A model generated the notes under the pieces. The model did not search any database. It was not told the origin of the DNA and was given only the letters and a program-made list of their open reading frames with translations. Positions 20,721 through 34,313 of a stretch of DNA of 43,206 bases are shown here, piece after piece. This DNA is from Minisyncoccota bacterium (GTDB lineage: Bacteria > Patescibacteriota > Microgenomatia > PFEM01 > JAFGMK01), in the NCBI GenBank assembly GCA_016927565.1, contig JAFGMK010000003.1, forward strand, positions 1 through 43,206, written 5' to 3'. Positions within the stretch are counted from its first letter, which is position 1; each line of letters starts with the position of its first letter. The position numbers and the translations under genes are program-made.

Positions 20721-21122
20721 GTGAACGTCAAACTTTATGTTGGCAATCTAGATTACGGTGTTACCAGTGACCAGCTGGGTGAGTATTTCGCCCAAGCCGG
20801 AACTGTGGTTAGCGCTACTGTAATTACGGATCGCTATTCCGGTCGCTCAAAGGGTTTTGGTTTTGTGGAAATGGCGAGCGAGGATGAGGCTAAGAAGGCG
20901 ATTGAAACCTTAAACGGAAAGGAATTTCAAGGAAGAACTATTGTTGTAAATGAGGCTCGACCTCCCAGGGAAAGAGGCCCTCAGTCGAGTATGCCAGCGT
21001 CATCAGCCGGCAGTTCTCAGCCGGCCAGTCAGCCTTTTGATGACTCTCAGCCAGAAGACACTCTTCAACCAGACGAAATAGCTGAACCCGGGACTAAATC
21101 TGAACCCGAACCAGCCGAGTAA
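20721..21122 (+). CDS. RRM-type RNA-binding protein with an acidic tail
   Basis: The 133-residue protein consists of one RNA recognition motif (residues about 2-80) with RNP2 LYVGNL and RNP1 KGFGFVEM, followed by a flexible Ser/Pro/Gln/Glu tail. It resembles the glycine-rich RNA-binding and Rbp proteins of cyanobacteria and other bacteria. Those proteins bind single-stranded RNA and are often cold-responsive. The GTG start is set by an excellent Shine-Dalgarno sequence (GGGAGGAGGTG) 6 nt upstream. A -10-like TAAAAT is at 20671. It is monocistronic, with a terminator behind it. Confidence 0.92.
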   Translation: MNVKLYVGNLDYGVTSDQLGEYFAQAGTVVSATVITDRYSGRSKGFGFVEMASEDEAKKAIETLNGKEFQGRTIVVNEARPPRERGPQSSMPASSAGSSQPASQPFDDSQPEDTLQPDEIAEPGTKSEPEPAE

Positions 21123-24349: not shown

Positions 24350-25114
24350 TTAGGGTGTTTTCCTGACCGGTGAAAGCCGTTCTACAGTTTCCCAAAGAAG
24401 ACTTAAATTTTTTAGTCTTTTCCCCCATTCTTCCTGAGTATCATATTTTTCCTTTTGCCATTTATTAAGTCCGCCGGTTTTTTTAATTTCTTCCTCAAAT
24501 CGATCCGGATCTTCCCAGGTCATTCCCCGGGCCGGCTGGTAGGCAATTTTTAAACCAGATTGAAAAACCAGAAACGGGAACTCGACACACGCTCCCCAGC
24601 TTTTTTCCACTGATTTCCGGGTAATAATTCTAGCGGCGCGACGGTTAATAATTTGAGTGGCGGTGGTGATATCAATTTGAAAGCCGATAATTTGACCGGC
24701 TAAATGATTGATGATTGATTCGGTTTTGATCCATGATTGGGGGTAGGTTGCCATCACCTTTTCTTCCCGGCCCAGAACCAGACAATCAGCCAGAGGGGTT
24801 TTTTTTAGAAGGGACAACAACTCCTGGCTTTCGGTTTTCAGCCAATGGAGCAATTTATCAAAGTCGATCAGAAAAAACCAATCTTTTTCTGACTTAAGCG
24901 CCTGTTTTAAAGCCGCCATTCTTGATTCTCCCCAGAGGCCCGTTTTAAGGGGAAAACTACCGAATTTTTTTAAAAGCATGATTAGTTTCTGATTAGTTTG
25001 ATCGGTGTAAGCGATTACTGATCCGGAAAAATTATTCCGGTATAAACCCGCTACTTGCTTTAGGAGTTTTATCATCTTTCCTTCAGGGTCATGAAGTGGT
25101 GAAACCGCAATCAT
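24350..25114 (-). CDS. Glycosyltransferase-like hypothetical protein
   Basis: The 254-residue protein has no signal or membrane segment. It begins with a beta strand and helix (MIAVSPLHDPEGKMIKLLKQVA) and holds a strand ending FFLIDFDKLLHWL, which is placed like the DxD strand of GT-A sugar transferases. It is second in a pair behind the LexA-dehydrogenase fusion, 76 nt downstream of it. A TATTAT box 6 nt before its ATG suggests it can also be transcribed alone as a leaderless mRNA. The sugar-transfer role is weakly supported. Confidence 0.55.
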   Translation of the reverse strand: MIAVSPLHDPEGKMIKLLKQVAGLYRNNFSGSVIAYTDQTNQKLIMLLKKFGSFPLKTGLWGESRMAALKQALKSEKDWFFLIDFDKLLHWLKTESQELLSLLKKTPLADCLVLGREEKVMATYPQSWIKTESIINHLAGQIIGFQIDITTATQIINRRAARIITRKSVEKSWGACVEFPFLVFQSGLKIAYQPARGMTWEDPDRFEEEIKKTGGLNKWQKEKYDTQEEWGKRLKNLSLLWETVERLSPVRKTP

Positions 25115-25190: not shown

Positions 25191-26270
25191 CTAGCTTCGA
25201 TGGCCAAAACCTTTCCTGGAAACAGCGAAAGGAATTTCTTCCCAATCGCGAATTTTTCTGACATCCAGATTTTTTTGCCAAACAGCTTCTAGGATTTTCG
25301 TGTTTACCCCTTTCTTTTCGGCTAAAGCCTTAAGCGCCAAAAGGTCCTTGGGAAGACATTTGCCGCCAAAGCCCCCCAAAGTGGTGATTTCCAAGTGAGA
25401 ATCAAAGATGCGGGAATCAGCGGCGACCATTTTTTTGACTTCTTCATATTTGATTTTTAATTTTTGGCAAATCTCATTCATTTCATTGGCAAAAATCACC
25501 TTAGTCGCCAAAAAACAGTTTGCCATATATTTTACCATCTCGGCGGTCGTGGGATCGGTTTGGAAAATTGGTGTTTTGGGCATTATTTTTTGGTACAAGG
25601 CCGAAACCCGGCGGAAAACCAAGTTGTCTTCGGCCCCGATTATTATCCGGTCAGAGTTAATAAAGTCCTGTAAAAAATTTCTTTCAGTTAAAAATTCCGG
25701 ATTAAAACAGAAAAGTGACTGGGGATATTTTTTGATAAAAGATTTGGTAGTGCCGGGGATTATTGTTGACTTAATGACAATGATTTTGTCCGTATTCTTG
25801 GTTAGGCTGGCGATTTTATGGATGTTCTGATTAACTATTTTAAGATCAATTCCGGATTTATCTTTTTTTATTGGGGTTGGGAGGCAAATAAAAAGGTAAT
25901 CAGATTTGGCTACGACTCGGGGTAAGGTTTCGGAATCCTTATATTTATCATAAACATGGATCTCTTCTCTGGAGAAGCCGTATTTTACTGCCTGGCCAAC
26001 GATGCCAAAACCGACAATGCCGATTCTTTTAACTGTTTGATCAGTAATGCTTTTGAGCGAATCAGCCGCCAGGCTGAGTCCGCGAACAGCGCCTTTTTCC
26101 CTTTTTAAGATTTTTTTCTTTTCCAGGACCTGAAGATACTGACTGATGGTGGGGGGGGCTTTTCTGAAGTGTCTGGCAATTTCGGCCAGGGTAGGGGAAT
26201 AATCGTTTTTTTGAATAAAAGAAGTGATAAAATCCAGAACTTTCTTTTGTTTTGGCGTAATTGTTTTCAT
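25191..26270 (-). CDS. LexA-type DNA-binding domain fused to UDP-glucose/GDP-mannose dehydrogenase
   Basis: Residues about 1-66 are a LexA-type winged helix (LDFITSFIQKNDYSPTLAEI, then PPTISQYLQVLEKKKIL and a GAVRGLSL wing). From about residue 81 a sugar-nucleotide dehydrogenase begins, with Rossmann motif GIVGFGIVG, CLPTP, KSTIIPGTT, NPEFLTERN, the VKYMAN catalytic Lys region, and GGFGGKCLPKDL with the catalytic Cys. Only about 45 residues follow, so the C-terminal UDP-binding domain is missing. The LexA protease domain is also absent. No frame break separates the two parts. It may be a sugar-nucleotide-responsive regulator; this is inference. Confidence 0.88.
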   Translation of the reverse strand: MKTITPKQKKVLDFITSFIQKNDYSPTLAEIARHFRKAPPTISQYLQVLEKKKILKREKGAVRGLSLAADSLKSITDQTVKRIGIVGFGIVGQAVKYGFSREEIHVYDKYKDSETLPRVVAKSDYLFICLPTPIKKDKSGIDLKIVNQNIHKIASLTKNTDKIIVIKSTIIPGTTKSFIKKYPQSLFCFNPEFLTERNFLQDFINSDRIIIGAEDNLVFRRVSALYQKIMPKTPIFQTDPTTAEMVKYMANCFLATKVIFANEMNEICQKLKIKYEEVKKMVAADSRIFDSHLEITTLGGFGGKCLPKDLLALKALAEKKGVNTKILEAVWQKNLDVRKIRDWEEIPFAVSRKGFGHRS

Positions 26271-26327
26271 AAGTAATTTTTTAGGTATAATACTTATAAA
26301 CTACTAAATAAAAACTTAGGTTGTCAA
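26269..26327 (-). promoter_or_regulatory. Promoter/operator region of the LexA-dehydrogenase gene
   Basis: On the minus strand a consensus TTGACA (26327-26322) is followed by A/T-rich DNA with several possible -10 boxes (TAGTTT at 18 nt, TATAAG at 23 nt). An inverted repeat, ATAAGTA (26297-26291) and TACTTAT (26275-26269), flanks the leader and overlaps the start codon. ACCTAA occurs twice. The repeat is a candidate self-operator. Confidence 0.4.
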
Positions 26328-26801: not shown

Positions 26802-27929
26802 ATGACAAATAAAGAAATAAATGTTCTGGCACCTTCAGTCGGTAATGGCAGAACTTTGTATCAATTTTCTCTTGGAGGTGCTTTTAAAGAGTTGGGCCCG
26901 GATCGGCAGGTATTAACAAGCGATGTTTTTAATCTTCCGACGGAAGGCTGGATAAAGAAGCTGGTTTTGGAAGCGGGGTACCGGGTTCTTTCTCAAATGC
27001 CACCGTCGCTTTATAAGTTTATTCGTCAGACGCTGGATGAGAGGCCTCTAAGTTTGGGATCAGATCAGAAAAGGGCGCTTCAGGCTTGTTTTGAAGGCCA
27101 AACAGTAGTTTCGGTTAGTCCGGTAGCTTCCCGGATTTTGGGTTCAGCTGGGATTTCTCATTATGGCGTGGCGGGTGATGCCTTTGTTCAGGACAGCTGG
27201 CTAAGCCCGGCGGTTCAGCGACTTTTTGTCCCTTTTCCGAATGGTGATTTGCCGGGTATCGGGAAAAATCAGGTCAGAGAAACCAGGGGCGTTTTGCTTC
27301 CTCTTCCTTTTGCCGAAATTAATCCTCAGGATAAATTGGAAAGGGCGGCTGAGGTTGGCCAGGGAAATGAATTGTTCAGAGTTGGATTTGTTACTCACGG
27401 AGCCGGGGAAATGAATACGGTCTGGTCTCTTTTAGGAATCCGACAGGCCTTAAAAGACAAAAGACTGCATGCCGCCTTTTTTACCGGCCAGCATCGTCAT
27501 TTAGCTTTGGCTTTAGGCGCCCTTTGTCAGGGATTTAAAATTCCCAGAAGCCAGATGGTAAATGATTGTATCCCGGGAACAGTTAGCATTTGGGAAAGTT
27601 ATTCTCCCCGACAAATGGCCGAAATCAAAGGGCAAGTGCTGCCGTATTGTGATCTTTTGATTTCACCGACGGCCAATGAAACCTCCTTTATGGGGCCGGG
27701 CTTATTTCGGGGAGCAAGAAATCGGGTGGAAGAGGCAAATGGAGCTTTGGGTCAACAATCCGGCTGGCTAAGACGGCTGGAAAAACCGCCTATCAAAGTG
27801 TGGCAGGAGATTGGTGGTTTAGTAATAGACGGCGTTTCTCTGTCAAAGATGACCGAAGCCTTTCATCAAAATGTTTCTCTTGGTGTCAGCCTGACAGTAG
27901 CCAGAGAAATTCTGGCGTTGGAGGGATAA
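26802..27929 (+). CDS. GT-B-like hypothetical protein
   Basis: The 375-residue protein has no membrane segment. It shows two Rossmann-like halves: an N-terminal half with VVSVSPVASRILGSAGISHYG and AGDAFVQDSWLSP, and a C-terminal half with VGFVTHGAGEMNTVWSLL and CDLLISPTANETSF. This resembles the donor and acceptor halves of GT-B glycosyltransferases such as the MurG/MGDG-synthase group, but key motifs are not exact. A perfect TATAAT (26788-26793) lies 8 nt before the ATG with no SD, so the mRNA is probably leaderless. It is the last clearly chromosomal-looking gene before the accessory region. Confidence 0.55.
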   Translation: MTNKEINVLAPSVGNGRTLYQFSLGGAFKELGPDRQVLTSDVFNLPTEGWIKKLVLEAGYRVLSQMPPSLYKFIRQTLDERPLSLGSDQKRALQACFEGQTVVSVSPVASRILGSAGISHYGVAGDAFVQDSWLSPAVQRLFVPFPNGDLPGIGKNQVRETRGVLLPLPFAEINPQDKLERAAEVGQGNELFRVGFVTHGAGEMNTVWSLLGIRQALKDKRLHAAFFTGQHRHLALALGALCQGFKIPRSQMVNDCIPGTVSIWESYSPRQMAEIKGQVLPYCDLLISPTANETSFMGPGLFRGARNRVEEANGALGQQSGWLRRLEKPPIKVWQEIGGLVIDGVSLSKMTEAFHQNVSLGVSLTVAREILALEG

Positions 27930-29257: not shown

Positions 29258-29956
29258 ATGACACAAAATTATTCTTGTATTATTCCTGCTTACAACGAAA
29301 TTAACCGTATACCTGGAGTATTAGAAGCAATTTTAAGAATTGAAGATTTATCCAGAATTATTTGTGTTGACGATGGCTCAACAGATGGTACGGGGGATTT
29401 TGTTAAAGAGAAATTTCCCAGAGTGAAACTGGTTAAGCACTTTACCAACAAAGGAAAAGCTGCGGCAGTCTTAACGGGTCTGGGTCTTGCTAAAGAAAAT
29501 GATAATATTCTTTTGCTTGACGCCGACCTCGAATACCTGAAAACCGAGGAAATCAAAACCTCAATAGAGCTTTTTGAAAAGAATCAGTTAGACTGTTTAA
29601 TATTGCACACTCATTACCTTAATTTCTGGGATTTATTTATTCGCAAACTACTTCGTGTTCCTCATTGTATGGCAGGGACTCGGCTTATTAAAAAAACATG
29701 CCTGGTTAATGTGCTGGAAAACAAGTTTCTTAAAAATTATCAACTAGAGATTGCCCAAAACCAATATTTAATGAGGAATCAAAAGATGGTTGCTTATACA
29801 GATATCACTGCCCTTAATACTGCCAAGACTGTTAAGGATGGGTTAGTAAAGGGCATCTTTGAAGAAATTGAGATGTGGAAGCAAATTATCGAATACGCGG
29901 GTTGGTCTTTTTTTATCAAACAAACTCTTCTATTTGCTAGGAAAAAAGTGACATAG
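29258..29956 (+). CDS. Family 2 glycosyltransferase
   Basis: The 232-residue GT-A enzyme begins CIIPAYNEINRIPGVLEAIL and has the nucleotide-binding VDDGSTDGTGD, then FTNKGKAAAVLTGLGLA and the metal-binding DxD in ILLLDADLEYL. It has no C-terminal transmembrane anchor, though the tail is moderately hydrophobic. It probably adds a sugar to a lipid or surface glycan at the inner face of the membrane. A TATACT box at 29216 serves as a possible -10. A six-codon mini-ORF (start 29227) precedes the gene in its leader. Confidence 0.88.
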   Translation: MTQNYSCIIPAYNEINRIPGVLEAILRIEDLSRIICVDDGSTDGTGDFVKEKFPRVKLVKHFTNKGKAAAVLTGLGLAKENDNILLLDADLEYLKTEEIKTSIELFEKNQLDCLILHTHYLNFWDLFIRKLLRVPHCMAGTRLIKKTCLVNVLENKFLKNYQLEIAQNQYLMRNQKMVAYTDITALNTAKTVKDGLVKGIFEEIEMWKQIIEYAGWSFFIKQTLLFARKKVT

Positions 29957-30539: not shown

Positions 30540-30640
30540 CTTAATTTGCCTATCTTTGGCAGGACGGTCCTTGTTAAGACCCGATCTTTGATTTATCAGA
30601 AAAGTGAAAGTATCCTATAATTGTGGTATTATTAATTGCG

Positions 30641-31417
30641 ATGGGAGCAGAGACGCTTCAGGACTATCTTCGACAGGCGCAAGTGCCTCAACTAAATAGG
30701 GCCGTTGCTTTAGTGCAGGACTCAATGGGCGATAAGGATGTTTTTCCTCAGTCAACGAACTTCAGAGGTCTTGAGCGGGTGAGGGTAATGAATAAAGTTA
30801 TCAGCGCTTCTGTCCCAGTAGCTGTCCTTAATGCAGTTTTGGCTTTAGGCATTGATCCTAAGGCGGGTGTGGATGAGATGACATTGCGGTTAGCGGCAGC
30901 CGACATAGGGACTGAAAGACGGGGTGACTGGAGGCTTCTGGAGCAAGTCCCAGAGATCGGTTTGTGGTTCACTACTCGACAAGGGTTGGGTCAACTAATG
31001 AAGATTGTTAAAGCTCCGACTCGAAGTGAGCCATTGCCGATTGAGGCGTTCGAAGAGTCAGCAAGCGATATTGGTTTAGCTCATGAAGCGTTAATGAATG
31101 GCTGTACAGCAGTTGCGGTTCATAATACTGAGAATCATGCTTTAACCTTAGCGGGAGCTTCTCAAAAGGAGGGGATTCCGACTTGGTATGTTGTACCTCC
31201 TGATGAATTTACTTTTCTTTTTGTCACAGAAAGGGTTGGGAATTGGGTCCGTGGCGATTTGAAAAGGGTAACCGCGCCGATTGTGGAGGTGAGCCCTTAT
31301 GAGTTGCTTGGTTATTTACAAGAGTTTTGGTTGGTAAAAAGAGAAGATAATCTTTGGGCGCCTTCGGTTGACACAGAGGAACCACCACTCGATTTAGGAG
31401 AGATAAAGCTTGTTTAG
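30641..31417 (+). CDS. Hypothetical soluble protein
   Basis: From the ATG at 30641 the product is 258 residues with no signal peptide or membrane segment. A consensus TATAAT lies at 30616-30621, so an alternative GTG start at 30623 would fall at the -10 box and is unlikely. The composition is alpha/beta-like with phrases such as VPVAVLNAVLALGIDPKAGVDEM, CTAVAVHNTENHALTLAG and KEGIPTWYVVPPDEF. I do not recognise a family. It is a single gene with long spacers on both sides. Confidence 0.6.
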   Translation: MGAETLQDYLRQAQVPQLNRAVALVQDSMGDKDVFPQSTNFRGLERVRVMNKVISASVPVAVLNAVLALGIDPKAGVDEMTLRLAAADIGTERRGDWRLLEQVPEIGLWFTTRQGLGQLMKIVKAPTRSEPLPIEAFEESASDIGLAHEALMNGCTAVAVHNTENHALTLAGASQKEGIPTWYVVPPDEFTFLFVTERVGNWVRGDLKRVTAPIVEVSPYELLGYLQEFWLVKREDNLWAPSVDTEEPPLDLGEIKLV

Positions 31418-31761: not shown

Positions 31762-31767
31762 TTGGGC

Positions 31768-32862
31768 ATGGGCGAAAATGAAGCTTCAGTTGGTTTTGAG
31801 ACTTTTTCCAAACGATTGGCCGTCCAAGTTATACCCGAACAAAAAAAAGTGATTGAGGGACTTTCGGTGGGAACTTTAGCAGAAAAGGTTGGGCCTTCAA
31901 TGGCCGCCACAATTGAGAGCTCTTTCGCAGATGATAGCTTATCTGATGAGAGCCCGGATTCCAGAAGGTGTAAGAGCCTCTTGGATGGTTCTCCTAAGCA
32001 CTTTTCAACCCCAGCTTGCTTTCAAGCGGCCAGGCGGCTTTTTGGCCGCCCTCAGCGACCGCAAGGATTAAGAGTAGCCGAGCTTAATGTTGGGGACGAA
32101 GAATCGGCTGAGACATTCGTAGCTCGTCAAACCCCACTTTCCGGAGGAGTTAAAAGAATAGAGGTTTTTGCCGTTGCATCAGACCTTCATAAGGATGAAA
32201 ACCACGATGTCGAGCTTCCAATTAGCCACTTATTAGTAGTTAATCCCCAGAACGGCCTAGTTGCTGATCTGGTTGATTTATTGCCACCAGGCACAACTGC
32301 CTGCCTAGAGATGAACATTATTGATCGTGGAGGTCTTAGTAGCCGAGTGGAACAAATAGGGAAAGGTGCCTCTGGTGAGAAAGTAAATCCAGGGCAAAGA
32401 ATAGTTCTCCACAATAAAGAAATGATTGGTGGTCGTGATGTTGGCGACGTTAAAGGCCCGGTCCTTCTCCACGAATCTGCTCATCTTCTTCAATTCTTTC
32501 ATCTTGCCAGCCATGCAAACTTTAAGGAAAAAATTGGGGACTTCGTTTTATCTGCTCAGAGAAGGGCCTATCAGTACTTTTTTAAAAAAGAGTTTGCAAG
32601 AACAGGTTTGCCAAGACTTCCTAAAGCCCAGCAGAGACGAATAGCGCTGATGGAAAAAAATGCCTGGCAGTTTACCCTGGCTACCATTTGGAGGTATCGT
32701 GAATTAGGAGTCGACCCGGTACCCGAATTAAGCGACGCCGATCTTTTGGCCTTTTCCAACCTGTGTCTGCGAATATACCAGGATGGGTACAAAATTACCA
32801 TTCCGAAAATTTTAAGACTTTCGCCTCATGAATCTGGTCTTGGGAGGCCAAAATCCTCTTGA
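31768..32862 (+). CDS. HExxH metallopeptidase-like protein
   Basis: The 364-residue protein has no signal peptide. A zinc-binding HESAH lies in GPVLLHESAHLLQFFH (about residue 235), and a possible third ligand Glu lies about 60 residues on in MEKNAWQFTLATIW, as in gluzincins. The first 150 residues are unlike anything I recognise and include a polar Ser/Asp stretch. I start at ATG 31768 because the -10 box ends 6 nt before it. The 3' end overlaps a recombinase gene remnant in another frame, so the last few residues may have been altered by that junction. Confidence 0.65.
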   Translation: MGENEASVGFETFSKRLAVQVIPEQKKVIEGLSVGTLAEKVGPSMAATIESSFADDSLSDESPDSRRCKSLLDGSPKHFSTPACFQAARRLFGRPQRPQGLRVAELNVGDEESAETFVARQTPLSGGVKRIEVFAVASDLHKDENHDVELPISHLLVVNPQNGLVADLVDLLPPGTTACLEMNIIDRGGLSSRVEQIGKGASGEKVNPGQRIVLHNKEMIGGRDVGDVKGPVLLHESAHLLQFFHLASHANFKEKIGDFVLSAQRRAYQYFFKKEFARTGLPRLPKAQQRRIALMEKNAWQFTLATIWRYRELGVDPVPELSDADLLAFSNLCLRIYQDGYKITIPKILRLSPHESGLGRPKSS

Positions 32863-33299: not shown

Positions 33300-34313
33300 T
33301 CAAGAGAGGGAGAAGATCGCTTTTATTTGATCCATAGAATGTTGCGGGCAATGATAACCTACTCCTGCCCAAAGATCATTCGGCAAAATCTCATCTCCTT
33401 CAACTCCTTCCCCGTCTAGGATCATGCCAACCTCATCAACTATCTTTGGTAAATCATTCGGATCAAATCCTAATTCTCGGGCCGCTTTATAAATTAGCTT
33501 ATAGTTTGCCAGGGCGCTAACCCGGTTTTCAAGTAGCCTTTCCATCAATTTCCGCGCCTTTTTCTCACCTAATAATTGAGCAACTCTTTGTCTTAAGGCA
33601 TAAAACTCTATAGAGGTGGCTAGGCGTTCTTCAGCAATTCTTTGCTGGTGTTGGTTATCAAGACTAGAAAATGGCGCTGGAGTTTTCAAAACCTCTCTTG
33701 CTCTTTTGTTAATATCTCTTCCTTGAGAATTGGCCGCCCTTACCAAAACATGAGTCAGTTCGTGAGCGCTGAATGAAACTAAGGCTAGTTCTGTTGATTG
33801 CTGAGTGGAGAGCTCTACTCCTGCTTGCTCGGCTGTCTCTGTTAGGCGATTGGCTTGCCATAATAACCACTGGCCGCCCACCTCTAATCTTAAAAAGATT
33901 GATCCCATTACAAATGTTTCGGCGCTATCCGGGTCATAAACCGTGTTCTTTTCTCCAACCACCTTTGAAGCCGCGGCGATAATCGCCGGGGGAACTATGT
34001 CTTGGACTAACCCAGTCGCTTGTTGCCACGATCGAGTCACCATTTGCTTTCCTTCATCTTTATCTGGAGCTGTTTTTCTCTCGGTTCCTAGAGTTGCTTT
34101 AGATTGTGGGCTCGGAGGAATTATTGCTAATAATCCTCCCTTATCAACTTCAAATCTTCGTAAAGTATGTTCCTCGTCCCACCTTAATTCAAATGTTTTC
34201 ACCAGTCCACCTCTTAATACCCTGTCTAAAAGTTTAAACCTGGCATTGTGAGCCATTAAAAATTCCTGGCTTTGGGCATTTTGTCCTTCGGACTGTTCAG
34301 CATCTGCTTCCAT
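33300..34313 (-). CDS. HExxH (gluzincin-like) metallopeptidase protein
   Basis: The 337-residue protein has a zinc site HELTH in VSFSAHELTHVLVRAA (about residues 180-184). Downstream, RIAEERLATSIEFYALRQ offers the glutamate third ligand expected of gluzincins. No signal peptide or membrane segment is present. The C-terminal third is helical. A perfect TATAAT on the minus strand (34328-34323) lies 9 nt before the ATG with no SD, so the transcript is probably leaderless. It shares no obvious similarity outside the zinc site with the HExxH protein at 31768. Substrate unknown. Confidence 0.65.
   Translation of the reverse strand: MEADAEQSEGQNAQSQEFLMAHNARFKLLDRVLRGGLVKTFELRWDEEHTLRRFEVDKGGLLAIIPPSPQSKATLGTERKTAPDKDEGKQMVTRSWQQATGLVQDIVPPAIIAAASKVVGEKNTVYDPDSAETFVMGSIFLRLEVGGQWLLWQANRLTETAEQAGVELSTQQSTELALVSFSAHELTHVLVRAANSQGRDINKRAREVLKTPAPFSSLDNQHQQRIAEERLATSIEFYALRQRVAQLLGEKKARKLMERLLENRVSALANYKLIYKAARELGFDPNDLPKIVDEVGMILDGEGVEGDEILPNDLWAGVGYHCPQHSMDQIKAIFSLS

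Follow-up and report, generated by a model that had tools for sequence, protein, structure and literature searches.

The window analysed here, a stretch of 43,206 nucleotides from a contig of a Minisyncoccota bacterium, carried on its reverse strand an open reading frame of 359 codons with ATG as start, which joined a LexA-type winged helix-turn-helix (wHTH) to a dehydrogenase resembling UDP-glucose dehydrogenase (UGD) (Table 1). Pfam searches matched residues 1-64 of the product to LexA_DNA_bind (PF01726, E 2.9e-13, a match exceeding the gathering threshold), residues 110-216 to UDPG_MGDP_dh_N (E 3e-22) and residues 242-334 to the dehydrogenase central domain (E 1.6e-25), while no match to Peptidase_S24 or to UDPG_MGDP_dh_C (PF03720) was returned for this protein. 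With the NCBIfam models, the fusion reached 192.6 bits for nucleotide sugar dehydrogenase (TIGR03026), slightly above the cut-off of 189.8, and 48 bits for LexA (TIGR00498), against a cut-off of 111 and covering residues 1-86 only. The motifs GFGIVG, KSTIIPGTT, VKYMAN and GGFGGKCLPKDL were all found. These searches confirmed the original prediction, which had described a LexA-type winged helix and a dehydrogenase in one chain, lacking both the S24 protease domain and the C-terminal UDP-binding domain. By its domain content, the protein is neither a LexA, having no S24 domain, nor a canonical UGD, having no UDP-binding domain.

The AlphaFold model of the whole fusion was confident (mean pLDDT 93.6), with a loose linker between the compactly folded wHTH and an enzyme of two domains. 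Within the wHTH, modelled mostly with pLDDT above 90, helices were placed at residues 6-22 and 28-35, the recognition helix at residues 39-51 and the strands of the wing at residues 55-57 and 65-67. The linker region was variable in sequence (mean pairwise identity of 28% among the fusions over residues 65-81) and modelled with low confidence (pLDDT of about 59 over residues 71-80). In the enzyme part, a 31-residue helix (residues 240-270) occupied the position of the UGD dimer helix, and the top PDB matches retrieved by Foldseek were UDP-glucose dehydrogenases. The short C-terminal FG[NH][RK] tail was present in 10 out of 10 aligned fusions and in a frameshifted one (L078); it was absent from the other 93 proteins tested, all of them stand-alone. 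Sequence and model together indicate an intact enzyme and an intact DNA-binding domain in one chain.

Table 1. Features of the fusion gene and its promoter in the window.
Feature	Position	Strand	Evidence
Fusion gene, LexA-type wHTH, linker and two-domain UDP-glucose-dehydrogenase-like enzyme, 359 aa	25191..26270	-	ORF call, Pfam, full-length relatives
C-terminal tail with FG[NH][RK], residues 351-359	25194..25220	-	Found in the fusion clade only
NAD-binding Rossmann and central helical domain, residues 82-350	25221..26027	-	Pfam, alignments, model, Foldseek
Flexible variable linker, residues 67-81	26028..26072	-	Pairwise identity, pLDDT
LexA-type wHTH, residues 1-66	26073..26270	-	Pfam PF01726, AlphaFold model, dN/dS
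Two further operator-like units (TAAGTAAT, TTAGGTAT), oppositely oriented and extending to the start codon	26270..26288	+	
Three operator-like units repeated directly, period exactly 11 bp: TAAGTTTT (26318-26311), TTAGTAGT (26307-26300), TAAGTATT (26296-26289)	26289..26318	-	
TTGACA, -35-like element	26322..26327	-	Sequence comparison; similar place in nearly all fusion promoters

Searches of related genomes recovered full-length relatives with a single open frame and 59-65% identity. Nine other Microgenomatia assemblies had the same junction between the LexA and dehydrogenase parts in an open frame, and two more loci carried the fusion in a frameshifted and an HTH-truncated version. The twelve fusion loci studied comprised the window, five loci from Collierbacteria (L046, L047, L049, L052 and L078), two from Woesebacteria (L048 and L050), one from Shapirobacteria (L051), one from a Patescibacterium (L053), one from WWE3 (L054, taken from a different collection) and G368 (L271), whose reading frame was open to the end of the contig. 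The frame of L078 was broken next to an undetermined base, and in L054 the first half of the HTH (helices 1-2) was missing. Eight of the 374 genomes sampled from the class, counting that of the window, encoded the fusion, and none was found outside the class among 380 genomes sampled from the phylum. In a quick tree of 105 sequences, with SH-aLRT support and no bootstraps, all fusions formed one clade (SH-aLRT 98) nested in the stand-alone forms of Patescibacteria and DPANN; the sole differently labelled member of this clade was the frameshifted L078, and most viral short dehydrogenases formed a separate clade. On the topology of this tree, a single event joined the wHTH to a nucleotide-sugar dehydrogenase of two domains.

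The genome of the window also encoded an ordinary LexA of 205 aa with an S24-like C-terminal part (L002), separate from the fusion and with a different recognition helix. Every genome involved is a MAG or a draft assembly, which would allow lexA and a dehydrogenase gene to have been joined by an assembly or annotation artefact, but the open junction shared by nine other, independent assemblies and the complete, separate lexA of the same genome rule this out for practical purposes. The fusion is genuine and conserved, and the uninterrupted two-domain protein originally described was recovered in related genomes; neither of the outcomes named with the original prediction as refuting it came up. 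Three other genomes of the same class contained another kind of LexA fusion, in which a LexA-like protein (wHTH and S24-like part) continued in frame into a C-terminal DNA methyltransferase-like domain with a TSPPYN or CDLPYG motif (L043:4291-5772(+), L044:4652-6136(+) and L045:3566-5023(-)).

The dehydrogenase had been described as truncated, a wrong term for what proved to be a whole family of two-domain enzymes, and we rejected it. HTH-less two-domain dehydrogenases were found in Daviesbacteria, Amesbacteria, Woesebacteria, Woesearchaeota and many viral contigs, that is, standing alone in Patescibacteria, DPANN archaea and phages, and most of them (L055-L098 and L103-L182; compare phrog_9148) ended near ...DWEEIPFAV. 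Those of phages, Daviesbacteria and Woesearchaeota were the same two-domain enzyme as in the fusion, but had neither the HTH, nor the 11-bp promoter repeats described below, nor the FG[NH][RK] tail. At the viral loci, 22 out of 93 neighbouring proteins were NDP-sugar epimerases or dehydratases, which supports a sugar-nucleotide substrate. The short dehydrogenase was widespread in viral contigs (L103-L182), a single scan giving 249 stretches with a relative. In one stand-alone gene (L090:7938-10154(+)), about 440 aa resembling an intein were inserted precisely at the catalytic Cys (GGFGGK-C...HN-CFPKD), and a frame of 739 aa was also present at the short dehydrogenase locus of G309.

Residues T169, E192, E196, K247, N251, C305 and D309, which we take from general knowledge of UGDs to be the catalytic positions, were invariant in 10 out of 10 aligned fusions and, among 56 members of the family, invariant or almost so. 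The enzyme half appears to be active, the most likely reaction being the oxidation by NAD of UDP-glucose or of another NDP-sugar like it. The genome of the window encoded a UDP-glucuronate decarboxylase of the UXS type (E 1e-99 to human UXS1), which would need UDP-glucuronate; in this genome no other UGD homologue was detected at E 1e-3 and the fusion was the only candidate source of UDP-glucuronate found. UXS was present in only three of the 11 fusion genome entries searched (about nine distinct genomes), and the substrate is therefore uncertain. The possibility that a separate gene supplies the UDP-binding domain was rejected, as no such domain was encoded anywhere in the six fusion genomes searched, that of the window among them; given its absence, canonical UGD chemistry is not to be assumed.

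Upstream of most fusion genes, two to four direct TWAGTA(WT) repeats with an exact 11-bp period occupied the interval from the -35 box to the first codons, and in some members they extended into the first codons. The array consisted of ATTAGTAAATT, ATTAGTAATAT and GTTAGGTATAA in L046, and of ACATAAGTATT, ATGTTAGTATT, ACATAAGTATT and ATGTCAGTAAG in L048. The promoter of the window contained the direct units listed in Table 1 and no good -10 element. When the genomes were searched with TWAGTA-N5-TWAGTA, a single match was obtained both in the 1.19-Mb genome of the window and in the 1.09-Mb genome of G034, in each case at the fusion promoter; the pattern was present at this promoter in 7 out of 11 fusion genomes, with just 7 other matches in about 10.6 Mb. 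Around the fusion starts we counted 38 near-consensus units, when 16.2 were expected, and their commonest spacing was 11. A windowed lag-11 test, which replaced a whole-region lag-11 autocorrelation that was too blunt for some promoters, gave p<0.05 for 9 out of 12 fusion promoters compared to 1 out of 102 starts of stand-alone dehydrogenases. As the motif was found by inspection, these promoter statistics are in part post hoc, and several fusions are closely related to one another; the only held-out case, left aside when the motif was found, was G368. Its promoter (TTAGATGTTCA, TTAGATATATG, TTAGATATAGT) kept the 11-bp spacing with the core changed to TTAGAT (p 0.0015), and TTAGATN5TTAGAT occurred in the G368 genome at the fusion promoter only.

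An inverted repeat over the start codon had been put forward originally as the operator. Its arms (26266-26275 and 26291-26300) were 90% complementary, but taken alone the repeat did not reach significance (p 0.45), and it was not conserved among the fusions; it corresponds to the opposite-orientation units of the window taken together with the direct ones. We rejected the inverted repeat on both grounds and retained the idea of an operator at the start of the gene, where the conserved repeats lie. The evidence points to a private array of 11-bp direct repeats as the candidate operator.

Substitution rates were informative on the DNA-binding half. Between close Collierbacteria relatives the dN of the HTH was 0.06-0.11 with synonymous sites saturated, whereas the linker varied far more. 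By this measure, the HTH is under purifying selection, and both parts of the fusion have been kept by it since they were joined. T41 of the recognition helix was invariant and Q44 nearly so in the 10 aligned fusions. The usual helix type, PTIHQY, was replaced by SVPTVNTY in G368, and L053 combined an intact HTH and a QQQ recognition helix with no clear 11-bp array. The wing was lost and the repeat units were reversed in L051 (borderline lag-11 p of 0.054), and L054, with half of its HTH lost, had no array. This variation in helix and site among G368, L053, L051 and L054 fits co-evolution, the cases being too few for proof.

Several other accounts of these data were considered. The original prediction envisaged a regulator that senses NAD(H) or sugar nucleotides and controls envelope-sugar genes, as the pairing of a wHTH with an NDP-sugar enzyme and a gene for a family 2 glycosyltransferase at a distance of about 3 kb (29258-29956) could suggest. 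Against it, the exact pair pattern lay solely at the fusion's own promoter in the genomes of the window and G034, and the pattern with two mismatches allowed was not commoner than its reversed control (16 versus 34 in the window's genome). With no excess of sites elsewhere by exact or relaxed search, a wider regulon was rejected. An operator shared with canonical LexA was discarded too, since the lexA promoter of the same genome contained no operator-like repeats. The genes next to the fusions were mostly housekeeping ones with no common theme, and no operon partner was conserved across lineages. As sites are not in excess and the neighbourhood is not conserved, an envelope-sugar regulon is unsupported, and we regard it as very unlikely; by parsimony, the fusion would act on its own gene. 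The adjacent gene (24350-25114), originally said to look like a sugar transferase, gave no Pfam, PHROG, NCBIfam or PDB match and a predicted structure too poor for a fold search (pLDDT 37.5). Elsewhere in the window, 20721-21122(+) encoded a small RNA-recognition-motif protein (RRM_1, E 7.5e-24 in Pfam), and, near the fusion, 26802-27929(+), 30623-31417(+), 31762-32862(+) and 33300-34313(-) encoded proteins of 264-375 aa with no Pfam match.

The enzyme half could instead be dead or serve only as a sensor, leaving a protein that is solely a transcription factor. Such a fate has a precedent in BzdR, whose kinase part, fused to an HTH, is no longer active (PMC3602430), and the missing UDP-binding domain would be in line with it. 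However, every catalytic position is kept in all aligned fusions, and the stand-alone members, which also lack the UDP domain, often lie beside NDP-sugar epimerase genes in phages, so that loss of catalysis is improbable. Equally, we consider it unlikely that the HTH has lost specific DNA binding, with the repeats either occupied by another factor or present in the promoter by chance or as a neutral trait. The diverged linker, the missing wing of L051, the missing helices 1-2 of L054 and the lack of a clear array in L053 agree with such a loss, but the purifying selection acting on the HTH, the persistence of repeats private to the fusion gene despite saturated synonymous sites and the change of the repeat core where the recognition helix differs argue against it.

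Taken together, the fusion is probably an autogenously controlled 'trigger enzyme', an active NDP-sugar dehydrogenase that represses its own gene. The dehydrogenase part would dimerise through its long central helix, taking over the dimerising role of the LexA S24 domain, and successive wHTHs would bind the 11-bp repeats along one face of the DNA. Once bound, they would cover the -10 and start region and repress transcription of the gene, the enzyme remaining catalytically active while acting as autorepressor. Direct repeats appear unusual for a two-fold dimer and need explaining; they may be allowed by the flexible linker or by several dimers bound side by side. Two loci fit autoregulation less well, namely L053, whose intact HTH has no recognisable array, and the borderline L051.

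How far such control would depend on ligands is a more tentative matter. Occupancy by substrate, product or NAD(H) may alter DNA affinity through the linker and make the enzyme level track the need for it. It is conceivable, at rather less than even chance, that NAD(H) or UDP-sugar occupancy of this LexA-derived trigger enzyme gates cooperative wHTH binding to the 11-bp repeats in a private one-gene feedback, with operator and helix co-evolving across lineages. A simpler form of the trigger enzyme, to which we give the same limited credence, is a plain autorepressor whose wHTH gauges the amount of its own protein with no coupling to ligands. The private operator, the single-gene unit, the variable linker and a ligand coupling that is not evident from sequence are in favour of the simpler form, whereas the preservation of a one-chain fusion over deep divergence and a C-terminal tail restricted to fusions hint at coupling.

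The closest matches of the fusion in both sequence and fold are UDP-glucose 6-dehydrogenases (TIGR03026; PDB 3vtf, 3gg2 and 4a7p), with which it has in common the Rossmann and central domains and all catalytic residues, and from which it differs in having an N-terminal wHTH and no C-terminal UDP-binding domain. The N-terminal winged helix is common to the LexA repressor (TIGR00498; PDB 3k2z and 1lea), but the S24 domain for self-cleavage and dimerisation is not, and the true LexA is encoded elsewhere. PutA, BirA and NadR are trigger enzymes with a DNA-binding domain. As proposed here for the fusion, trigger enzymes place enzyme and DNA-binding domain in one chain under autogenous control; the fusion differs in pairing a LexA-type wHTH with an NDP-sugar dehydrogenase and in its apparent one-gene regulon. 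The concept of trigger enzymes, here those to which a DNA-binding domain was added, is that of Commichau and Stulke 2008, as cited in PMC3901225. The closest described construction that we found is BzdR, the regulator of anaerobic benzoate degradation genes, in which an HTH-XRE is joined by a linker to a shikimate-kinase-like domain (PMC3602430). In both proteins an enzyme has gained an HTH, attached by way of a linker, but catalysis was lost in BzdR, while the active site of the fusion appears intact and its predicted sites lie solely at its own promoter. In the open-access papers searched, no LexA-UGD fusion was described.

To our knowledge, few enzymes carry their own DNA-binding domain and few regulators have been characterised in Patescibacteria. 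The combination of a LexA wHTH with an NDP-sugar dehydrogenase would be a new pairing among such enzymes, and it draws attention to a family of short sugar-nucleotide dehydrogenases that lacks the UDP-binding domain and is common in phages. Free-standing relatives of the enzyme persist among phages and in sister lineages, so that its passage to an enzyme-regulator may be traced on a tree. In most of the genomes examined there seems to be only one predicted operator, and the fusion could thus be a simple natural system in which to follow the joint change of a recognition helix and its site.
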